Origin: a virus
Length of the DNA: 42,168 nucleotides
Reading direction: 5' to 3' (one strand)
Virus record (IMG/VR): IMGVR_UViG_3300047496_000080
Location: 1-42,168 of that record
Part shown: piece after piece, positions 1 through 1,967 of the stretch
Position numbering within the stretch: position 1 is the stretch's first letter
Layout of the letters: every line of letters begins with the position of its first letter
Position numbers and translations under genes: made by a program
The notes under the pieces: generated by a model
Told to the model about the DNA's origin: nothing
Database searches by the model: none
What the model saw: only the letters and a program-made list of their open reading frames with translations

Positions 1-282
1 CGCGCCGTACAGGTTCGCGCCGAACAGGTCCGCGTAGCGCAGGTCCGCGCCGCGCAGGTCCGAGCCGGCCACGTCCGCGTAGCGCAGGTCCGCGCCGGCC
101 ACGTCCGCGTGGCGCAGGTCCGAGCCGCGCAGGTCCGCGCCGGCCAGCTTCGCGTAGCGCAGGTTCGCGCAGCGCAGGTTCGCTCTTTCCTTTACCGCAG
201 CTTCCACGGCTACCCTTATTGTGGGGGCTGCGAAGGAAAACGCTATGCTTCCGTTGAAGCGGTTGAGAATGTCGAATTTCAT
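1..282 (-). CDS. Pentapeptide-repeat protein, 3' end beyond the window
   Basis: Reading the minus strand from the ATG at 282 gives an open frame of 94 codons to the window edge. The first ~32 residues form a short N-terminal domain (begins MKFDILNRFNG, then VAVEAAVKER). After that come at least 12 tandem pentapeptides of the A(N/D)Lxx type (ANLRC, ANLRY, AKLAG, ADLRG, ADVAG and so on), which fold as a right-handed beta-helix in this family. An AGAGG Shine-Dalgarno lies 7 bases upstream. It is the last visible gene of a four-gene minus operon. Phage pentapeptide proteins have no single known role; some family members mimic DNA, but nothing here shows that. If the window is circular the frame continues without a stop into the ORF at 42156-41893. 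The N-terminal domain resembles the product at 32334-32200. Confidence 0.8.
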   Translation of the reverse strand, partial: MKFDILNRFNGSIAFSFAAPTIRVAVEAAVKERANLRCANLRYAKLAGADLRGSDLRHADVAGADLRYADVAGSDLRGADLRYADLFGANLYGA

Positions 283-806: not shown

Positions 807-835
807 AGATTAATCTCGGTTGACACGCGTGTCAA
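807..835 (-). promoter_or_regulatory. Minus-strand promoter of the left operon
   Basis: On the minus strand, a consensus -35 TTGACA (835-830) is followed after exactly 17 bases by TAATCT (812-807), a partial -10 match (first TA and last T). The -35 is half of the perfect palindrome at 820-835, so a protein bound there would block this promoter. The first start codon is at 775. Confidence 0.5.
820..835. promoter_or_regulatory. 16-bp perfect palindrome TTGACACGCGTGTCAA, probable operator
   Basis: The sequence equals its own reverse complement over 16 bases. It lies between the divergent genes at 775 (minus) and 900 (plus) and contains a TTGACA on each strand. Close relatives occur at 35576-35591 and 41428-41443, both in promoter regions. 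This pattern fits a dimeric repressor or activator site; the binding protein is unknown. Confidence 0.55.
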
Positions 836-864
836 CGGGGAAAACCGGGCCTACGTCACATTTT

Positions 865-893
865 TTGCCAGTGTTCCCGGGAACACGTATTAT
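865..893 (+). promoter_or_regulatory. Plus-strand promoter of the methyltransferase gene
   Basis: TTGCCA (865-870), a 17-base spacer and TATTAT (888-893) form a good sigma70-type promoter. The predicted transcription start is at about 899-901, coinciding with the GTG at 900 that best fits the methyltransferase N-terminus, so the mRNA may be leaderless. The spacer is almost filled by the palindrome at 871-886. Confidence 0.6.
871..886. promoter_or_regulatory. 16-bp perfect palindrome GTGTTCCCGGGAACAC, copy 1
   Basis: A perfect 16-base palindrome sits between the -35 and -10 of the methyltransferase promoter, the classical position for a repressor operator. Identical copies occur at 3709-3724 and 35088-35103, both within coding sequence. 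Confidence 0.55.
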
Positions 894-899
894 CGCCGC

Positions 900-1967
900 G
901 TGCCACCACGGGCGTACTACAATGAATTTGACAATAAGACTGCGTCTTGGCTGCGCGAACTTATCCGTGAGGGCCATATCGCGCCGGGCGACGTTGACGA
1001 ACGCAGCATTGAGGACGTTACGCCCGGCGACCTCAGCGGGTACACGCAATGCCATTTCTTCGCCGGCATCGGCGGGTGGTCGCTTGCCTTACGACTCGCA
1101 GGCGTACCGGATTCGGCGCGAGTGTGGACCGGCAGTTGCCCCTGCCAGCCTTTCAGCGCGGCAGGCAAAGGAAAGGGGTTTGCTGACGAGCGGCACCTAT
1201 GGCCCGCTTGGCATTGGCTCGTCCAGCAGTGCCGCCCTCAGCTTATCTTTGGCGAACAGGTTGCGAGCGCTATGCAGTGGTTCGACCTTGTTTCGGCAGA
1301 CTTGGAAGCAGAAGGCTACGCCGCGGGGGCGGCAGTATTGGGCGCACACAGCGTCGGCGCACCGCACATCAGGCAGCGACTTTACTGGGTGGCCGACAAC
1401 AACAAGGCAGGATTCAGCAAGCAGCGGCGCAGCGGGTTACTCAACGGAAAGCGGTCGGCACAGCGGGATTACGTTGACGGACGCGGCGCGGATGGCGGGA
1501 TGGCCCACGACGACGACGAGCGATCACACCGGAGCGGGTCACGCAGCGCAGGGCGGATTCAATCTGCGGACGGTAGCGTCTTGGGCGACGCCAACAACAA
1601 GGGACCACAAGGATGGCGCGAGCGCGGGGACGGCGCCGACGAACGGACTCTTGGGGCGGCAAGTTTGGGGCGCGTGGCCAACGCCGATGGTGCGGGATCA
1701 CTTCCCGGCGCATACGCCGGAATACATCCTAGCGAAGAAGGCGGAAGGACACGGGATGTCGAACTTGAACGACCACGCCGAGTTAGCTGGGCCGATGCCG
1801 AGTTCATCCCCTGCACAGACGGCAAAAGGCGGCCAGTTGAACCCGGCACATTCCCGCTGGCTCATGGGGTATCCGGCCGTGTGGCAAGTCTGCGCGGATA
1901 CGGCAATGCGATCGTGCCGCAAGTCGCCGCGGCGTTCATCGAAGCGTATTTAGACGTTCCAGCCTGA
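900..1967 (+). CDS. DNA (cytosine-5) methyltransferase
   Basis: 355 residues from the GTG at 900. Motif I FFAGIGGWSLAL is at residues 53-64, motif IV SCPCQPFS with the catalytic Cys at 82, a motif VI variant GEQV (Glu119; most enzymes have ENV), motif VIII QRLYWV at 159-164, and the C-terminal RGYGNAI at 332-338. It methylates C5 of cytosine in DNA using S-adenosylmethionine, usually protecting phage DNA from host restriction. The start at 900 is chosen because the family typically begins just before YYNEFD. There is no Shine-Dalgarno, and a promoter -10 box ends seven bases upstream. The region between motifs VIII and X (about residues 165-320) is low in complexity, as is usual in this phage subfamily. 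A second, overlapping frame is also protein-like (922-1953). Confidence 0.88.
   Translation: MPPRAYYNEFDNKTASWLRELIREGHIAPGDVDERSIEDVTPGDLSGYTQCHFFAGIGGWSLALRLAGVPDSARVWTGSCPCQPFSAAGKGKGFADERHLWPAWHWLVQQCRPQLIFGEQVASAMQWFDLVSADLEAEGYAAGAAVLGAHSVGAPHIRQRLYWVADNNKAGFSKQRRSGLLNGKRSAQRDYVDGRGADGGMAHDDDERSHRSGSRSAGRIQSADGSVLGDANNKGPQGWRERGDGADERTLGAASLGRVANADGAGSLPGAYAGIHPSEEGGRTRDVELERPRRVSWADAEFIPCTDGKRRPVEPGTFPLAHGVSGRVASLRGYGNAIVPQVAAAFIEAYLDVPA
922..1953 (+). CDS. Overlapping second reading frame within the methyltransferase gene
   Basis: This +1 frame relative to the methyltransferase is open from before 922 to a TGA... stop ending at 1953, giving up to 343 residues. From about nt 1177 it reads like a protein rather than a shadow: GLLTSGTYGP, GSTLFRQTWKQKATPRG, four spaced W(P/A)T(P/T) motifs (WPTTTRQD, WPTTTTSD, WATPTTRDHKDG, WPTPMVRDH), and GGQLNPAHSRWLMGYP near the end. 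From memory, proteins with this same string of motifs are annotated as methyltransferase-related in other phages, in place of or beside the frame used for motifs I-X. Either both frames are translated, or the similarity reflects annotation of the wrong frame elsewhere. The start codon is uncertain; the ATG at 922 is one candidate. Confidence 0.45.
   Translation: MNLTIRLRLGCANLSVRAISRRATLTNAALRTLRPATSAGTRNAISSPASAGGRLPYDSQAYRIRRECGPAVAPASLSARQAKERGLLTSGTYGPLGIGSSSSAALSLSLANRLRALCSGSTLFRQTWKQKATPRGRQYWAHTASAHRTSGSDFTGWPTTTRQDSASSGAAGYSTESGRHSGITLTDAARMAGWPTTTTSDHTGAGHAAQGGFNLRTVASWATPTTRDHKDGASAGTAPTNGLLGRQVWGAWPTPMVRDHFPAHTPEYILAKKAEGHGMSNLNDHAELAGPMPSSSPAQTAKGGQLNPAHSRWLMGYPAVWQVCADTAMRSCRKSPRRSSKRI

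Follow-up and report, generated by a model that had tools for sequence, protein, structure and literature searches.

Can a single stretch of phage DNA encode two parts of one enzyme in overlapping frames of the same strand, and if so, what does the second frame provide? The question is raised by a C5-cytosine DNA methyltransferase gene in a virus contig of 42,168 bases (IMG/VR record IMGVR_UViG_3300047496_000080; "the window" refers to this whole stretch), in which a second long open reading frame (ORF) covers the same DNA. An initial annotation had proposed an overprinted gene pair and had assigned no known function to the second product. To address this, several hundred loci were gathered with queries from either the +1 frame or the methyltransferase frame. 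The overprint is near certain, and the second product is probably a subunit of the same methyltransferase. We refer to the zero-frame product as alpha and to the +1-frame product of the same DNA as beta:

900 to 1967, plus strand: alpha, C5-cytosine DNA methyltransferase, catalytic subunit (PF00145, PHROG_363, M.HhaI-like fold by Foldseek)
820 to 1953, plus strand: beta, +1-frame ORF, proposed target-recognition/motif IX subunit (PHROG_1008, +1-frame profile, tblastn)

A catalytic subunit without motif IX

The alpha ORF extends from GTG 900, a start assigned from the frame and from homologs, to TGA 1967, and encodes a 355 amino acid protein. This protein matches PHROG_363 (3e-79) and PF00145 (4e-16), with the latter match confined to profile positions 64-166 of 324. 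The zero frame carries motif I (FAGIGG, 1059-1076), PCQPFS (1140-1157), GEQV (1248-1268), GAPHIRQRLYW (1356-1388) and RGYGNAI (1893-1913); motifs I, IV, VI, VIII and X are thereby present, and motif I, PCQ, motif VI and the QxRxR motif VIII occur in the order of a catalytic subunit. The initial annotation had placed all C5-methyltransferase motifs in this frame. RGYGNAI is indeed there, but motif IX is missing, and it is the +1 frame that has a motif-IX-like stretch.

Specific DNA contacts in ordinary C5-methyltransferases come from a small domain between motifs VIII and X, which comprises a variable recognition region and motif IX (PMC3404938). A pattern search detected motif IX in the zero frame of 0/194 loci, with patterns that were written after the sequences were seen, and none of the 194 zero-frame proteins resembles a single-chain enzyme in having both a recognition domain and motif IX in frame after motif VIII and ahead of motif X. 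AlphaFold predicts for alpha an M.HhaI-type catalytic domain, modelled confidently to about residue 165 and again at motif X; residues 167-289 mostly score below 50 in the predicted local distance difference test (pLDDT) and are modelled as disordered. Two features mark this part of the gene:

1389 to 1787, plus strand: region after motif VIII in which alpha is a disordered linker and beta, with its WPTP modules, the constrained product (codon-position rates, AlphaFold)
1893 to 1913, plus strand: alpha motif X (RGYGNAI), overlapped by the beta C-terminus (sequence; both frames constrained in the C-terminal 55 codons)

Each frame is maintained against the other

The +1 frame had been described as open over 1177-1953. 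Open it is, but its true extent (820-1953) goes well beyond this. Its product matches PHROG_1008 along the whole length (2e-23), and it is to this family that the motif series of proteins annotated in other phages corresponds. Four W(P/A)T(P/T) motifs are present as described (WPTT 1390, WPTT 1501, WATP 1582 and WPTP 1675), but at 37, 27 and 31 codons their spacing is not strictly regular. The GGQLNPAHSRWLMGYPAVW element reported near the end of the frame was found at 1828-1884.

Openness of the +1 frame was measured from PCQPF to the LMG motif, using as null the synonymous alpha codons shuffled within each gene. The frame is unbroken in 176/178 unique alpha genes, for which shuffles predict 2.55 stops per gene and 6.8% open frames; the +2 frame has about 11 stops. 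When viral contigs were searched without bias, using only alpha sequences from distant phages as queries, 80 loci were obtained. The 69 with the LMG motif in the +1 frame are all open (69/69; expected 2.8%, with 4.6 stops per gene) at a GC content of 41-68%, and none of the 79 loci analysed in this set has an in-frame motif IX. For the window alone, the +1 frame stays open from PCQPF to WLMG in 0.58% of synonymous shuffles (mean 3.7 stops).

Similarity of the +1 product was evaluated with a profile built from one set of +1 proteins and scored on an independent, alpha-selected set. The independent +1 proteins reach a median of 373 bits, compared with a mean of 145 and a maximum of 221 for alpha-synonymous shuffles, and the window scores 365.5 bits versus 136 +/- 14.5 after shuffling (maximum 174, 300 shuffles). 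In the reverse control, shuffling +1 codons drops alpha from 458 to 96 bits and, after motif VIII, would yield 3.4 zero-frame stops per gene; alpha runs in one ORF to motif X in 77/80 loci found through +1 peptides. Both directions of shuffling are destructive, yet both ORFs are kept; therefore, each frame is maintained against the other.

A change of selected frame within the gene

Nine independent pairs of close relatives (90-98.5% identity) were compared by alpha codon position (1/2/3). Substitution rates are.014/.014/.114 in the alpha N-terminus, before the overlap;.035/.019/.075 from PCQPF to motif VIII;.153/.036/.018 between motif VIII and the DGK box;.067/.027/.029 over the final 55 codons; and.062/.045/.163 in flanking ORFs of the same contigs. 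In the middle of the gene, the zero-frame wobble position, equivalent to codon position 2 in +1, is thus the slowest of the three (0.018 vs 0.114 in the N-terminal part), and this reversal after motif VIII is present in each of the nine closest pairs individually. Changes that affect alpha only occur there at 0.236; the N-terminal alpha-synonymous rate is 0.167. These rates indicate that +1 is the functional, selected frame after motif VIII and that alpha is constrained there only to stay open: after motif VIII, alpha is a read-through linker only. The earlier suggestion that its low-complexity middle reflects constraint from the second frame is borne out. The +1 frame is also constrained from PCQPF to motif VIII (0.127 vs 0.315 at alpha-synonymous sites, 80-90% pairs). 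The second frame is therefore both open and under purifying selection beyond that of the first, and the stop and synonymous-variation tests both favour overprinting, as had been proposed.

Relatives that are 95-97% identical elsewhere share about 65-73% identity in the recognition region (pairs L123/L166, L128/L160, L024/L038 and L187/L211), a pattern of cassette exchange. Exchange of the recognition region keeps two frames open.

Long +1 ORFs are frequent in high-GC genes, and +1 similarity partly follows from alpha, since shuffled sequences still score about 145 bits; on these grounds the +1 ORF could be viewed as an untranslated by-product of high GC and alpha conservation. The synonymous-shuffle controls, the reversed codon-position pattern, the selected start codon with its Shine-Dalgarno element (below) and persistence of the arrangement at 41-50% GC leave this explanation with next to no probability. 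A chance or GC artefact as such is ruled out by the shuffles, the substitution pattern and the low-GC relatives.

An internal start for beta in most relatives

The conserved beta start is the +1 codon located 15 codons before FAGIG, which is ATG in 112/165 loci and is formed by an alpha Asp codon, GAT, plus the following G (consensus of the region: GGAGcATtGAaGATG). Laboratory phage epsilon15 is one of those that have this start. GAT encodes 80% of these Asp residues but 42% of those elsewhere that share the context (p = 2e-18). A Shine-Dalgarno-like element precedes the ATG in 78/112 loci, compared with 19.9 expected under synonymous resampling. Together, the excess of GAT and of Shine-Dalgarno elements indicates that an internal ribosome-binding site and start codon are kept by selection inside alpha. 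Two positions in the window are relevant here:

1015 to 1017, plus strand: conserved internal beta start position (ATG in 112/165 homologs; ACG in the window, where the GGAG ribosome-binding site is lost)
922 to 924, plus strand: candidate beta start ATG, the sole +1-frame ATG upstream of the conserved start (no Shine-Dalgarno seen by eye)

Other candidate starts in the window are TTG 994, TTG 1009 and GTG 967. Given the ACG, the missing GGAG and a +1 frame that is open far upstream, another start must serve in this phage, or beta is weakly expressed; both proteins are presumably made.

The absence of the conserved ATG from the window would also fit a different explanation, programmed frameshifting, by which ribosomes translating alpha would move into +1 downstream of motif VIII, possibly returning to the zero frame ahead of motif X, so that a single chain has the recognition domain in place. 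Such a product would also agree with the selected frame changing immediately past motif VIII and with the constraint on both frames near motif X. It is nevertheless improbable: most relatives have a selected internal ATG with a Shine-Dalgarno element, the +1 frame is also constrained from PCQPF to motif VIII, and the conserved N-terminal motifs that it possesses would be superfluous in a frameshift product.

A proposed target-recognition and motif IX subunit

Because motif IX is missing from the zero frame, a specific proposal can take the place of "no known function", namely that beta is the target-recognition/motif IX subunit of the enzyme, as in M.EcoHK31I. Alpha lacks the small domain, beta is selected exactly there, and the beta region is variable, modular and exchanged, all of which is best explained by a recognition/motif IX subunit. 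We therefore regard as probable a split C5-methyltransferase in which the +1 frame of the catalytic gene encodes this subunit, whose role is deduced from these features. The elements of beta that bear on this proposal are:

1828 to 1884, plus strand: beta GGQLNPAHSRWLMGYPAVW, motif-IX-like (+1-frame pattern in 194/194 loci; weak hhalign placement on Dcm motif IX)
1279 to 1332, plus strand: beta GSTLFRQTWKQKATPRGR, predicted beta hairpin that follows an alpha helix; in the zero frame, this DNA encodes the part of alpha preceding motif VIII (AlphaFold; TWK near-invariant)

The motif-IX-like element reads LNPxxSRWLMGxP, or LNPxxSRWLMGxPxxW in extended form, and the pattern L-[NSDTA]-P...LM(G), written after the sequences were seen, occurs in the +1 protein of 194/194 loci. 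The best HHalign placement of the +1 motif is on motif IX (LTPRECARLMGF) of Dcm-like single-chain enzymes. In the AlphaFold model of beta (312 amino acids), a helix (70-86) and two strands (93-101 and 107-115) form a block, SLSLANRL...GSTLFRQTWKQKATPRGRQYWAHTAS, with pLDDT of about 79-92, and the remainder is poorly modelled.

According to this proposal, the zero frame would give catalytic subunit alpha, with S-adenosylmethionine-binding and catalytic motifs I-VIII, a floppy linker and motif X. The +1 frame would give beta, from its own ATG and Shine-Dalgarno element inside alpha in most relatives. Beta would correspond to the region between motifs VIII and X of single-chain enzymes, that is, the target-recognition domain (the variable series of WPTP modules) plus motif IX. 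The two proteins most probably associate into an active, sequence-specific methyltransferase; alpha and beta would bind each other, and beta would recognise the DNA target. Anti-restriction is the usual role of phage methyltransferases, and the enzyme would likewise modify phage DNA and protect it from host restriction, which is its likely purpose.

The closest parallel is M.EcoHK31I (YGGCCR), here compared by description only. Its small polypeptide was reportedly found by Lee et al. in 1995 to be encoded in an alternate frame inside the large one, just as phage beta lies in an alternate frame within the alpha gene. The larger subunit of M.EcoHK31I carries motifs I-VIII and X, with motif IX alone in the smaller subunit (PMC3404938), and phage alpha also has motifs I-VIII and X without IX; unlike M.EcoHK31I, phage beta has repeated WPTP modules and variable length. 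In the two-subunit M.AquI (CYCGRG), too, the division falls between motif VIII and the recognition region, and one enzyme is formed by two proteins (PMC3404938); the phage pair, by contrast, keeps motif X in alpha and has its recognition region in the overlapping +1 frame. E. coli Dcm and M.HhaI, both single-chain, share with alpha the catalytic domain and motifs I-VIII and X, and differ in having motif IX (LTPRECARLMGF) in frame.

Several observations weigh against this assignment. The window has ACG at the conserved internal ATG site and has lost the Shine-Dalgarno element. The match of beta to motif IX consists of its position and a short post hoc pattern, and the hhalign placement is weak (P 0.014, probability 3%). 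A Pfam search of beta returned no C5-methyltransferase match, and comparison with the PDB gave no significant match. The AlphaFold model of beta alone is poor (pLDDT 59), which is compatible with folding upon binding alpha. Finally, according to PMC3404938, it is the larger subunit of M.EcoHK31I that has the predicted recognition domain, whereas the phage recognition region appears to be in beta. A solved fold for beta was rejected, with neither a sequence nor a fold match in the PDB. BFVD gave four significant matches, all to phage proteins of similar sequence, from which nothing was learned on function; two are named, as "Methyltransferase" (Edwardsiella phage eiDWF) and "Uncharacterized protein" (Xanthomonas phage FoX4).

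Without statistically strong homology to any C5-methyltransferase, beta could instead be a real protein of unrelated function (e.g., anti-restriction or regulatory) that merely shares methyltransferase DNA. We consider this unlikely, given that motif IX and an ordered recognition region are absent from alpha at the very place where constraint on beta is seen, that beta was never found without alpha, even where only beta is annotated (Kosakonia phage Kc259), and that M.EcoHK31I provides a precedent.

Distribution and annotation of the pair

By tblastn, 404 phage records match alpha and 179 match the +1 protein. Hundreds of phages conserve the arrangement, with a same-strand overlap of some 150-370 codons; among them are phages of Proteobacteria, Firmicutes, Bacteroidota, Actinobacteria and cyanobacteria, as well as contigs binned to other phyla. 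Distant relatives with the same arrangement are N15, a T4-like phage (GC 46%), Paenibacillus phages (46-47%), Lactobacillus phage Lc-Nu (49%), a Bacteroides phage (46%), mycobacteriophages and phage C72C1; their +1 profile E-values range from 8e-8 to 1e-89. In a tree of the catalytic core, one branch divides split from single-chain enzymes (support 100/97), consistent with one origin of the split enzymes; the tree is not fully independent because the catalytic core overlaps the beta N-terminus.

These results incline us, by a small degree, to view the phage genes as a dual-coded C5-methyltransferase clade of single origin, of which M.EcoHK31I would be a member and in which the +1 recognition subunit is exchanged as a cassette with two frames kept open. 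The overlap would be reciprocal: alpha would serve as a neutral linker in the part important for beta, and the alpha catalytic motifs would share their DNA with the beta N-terminus. The breadth of the arrangement, the switch of the selected frame and the location of the recognition region in the +1 frame appear unreported in the literature searched; no paper generalising the overlap was found in that open-access literature, which is not proof of absence.

Most records annotate one frame only. PHROG_363 and PHROG_1008, both labelled DNA methyltransferase, correspond to alpha and beta, but they are listed as separate families, and the PHROG table is silent on their being two frames of the same DNA. 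Both ORFs are annotated at the same place in K1ind2, K1H, PhiXhv-18 and Paenibacillus phages Likha and Lily; the Lily record labels LILY_63 (L265 985-1476) "g62 internal gene", that is, beta inside the methyltransferase. No source was found for the name "Mte8-like", which beta bears in K1 phages. In Kosakonia phage Kc259 (L260 2129-2620), beta alone is annotated, as a hypothetical protein. This was the one candidate for a free-standing beta, and it was rejected, as alpha sits unannotated in the other frame; no beta without alpha was found among the loci inspected. Loci that seemed to lack alpha by the PCQPF pattern contained both long frames on inspection, except L239, where the searched motifs are seen in the frame of alpha only.

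In Cyanophage Cy-LDV1 (L003 2407-3681), no annotated ORF spans full-length alpha or beta, and an opposite-strand hypothetical protein is called instead. In mycobacteriophages Llama, Ochi17, Modragons and Seabastian, the methyltransferase match is one base longer than in SG4, and several records annotate two coding sequences, possibly a frameshifted alpha or a rearranged alpha/beta pair. Two other candidates were rejected: a Klebsiella aerogenes plasmid match, considered as an EaeI-type restriction-modification locus, is phage-like and lacks a restriction enzyme, and the out-of-frame HNH endonuclease in the methylase of mycobacteriophage ShiLan (PMC11855218) is an inserted homing element.

Genomic setting

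Directly downstream of the methyltransferase are portal, head morphogenesis and protease genes of a contractile-tailed phage. On the minus strand, window positions 1-282 encode a pentapeptide-repeat protein (ANLRYADL-type repeats, with many near-identical GCGCAGGTCCGCGCC units) that starts at 282 and runs off the window edge.

Implications for phage methyltransferases

If the proposal is correct, M.EcoHK31I would turn from an old biochemical curiosity into an example of a widespread phage strategy, and the many phage "DNA methyltransferases" that lack motif IX and have a low-complexity middle would be explained. Many phage and prophage annotations would then show half of an enzyme, because gene-calling programs choose a single frame. 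A missing beta, or one silently destroyed by codon optimisation, may also have made cloned "orphan" phage methyltransferases seem inactive, and the overlap is directly testable by codon optimisation or recoding. The locus also offers an unusually clean case of overlapping-gene evolution, in which dominance passes from one frame to the other within the gene.
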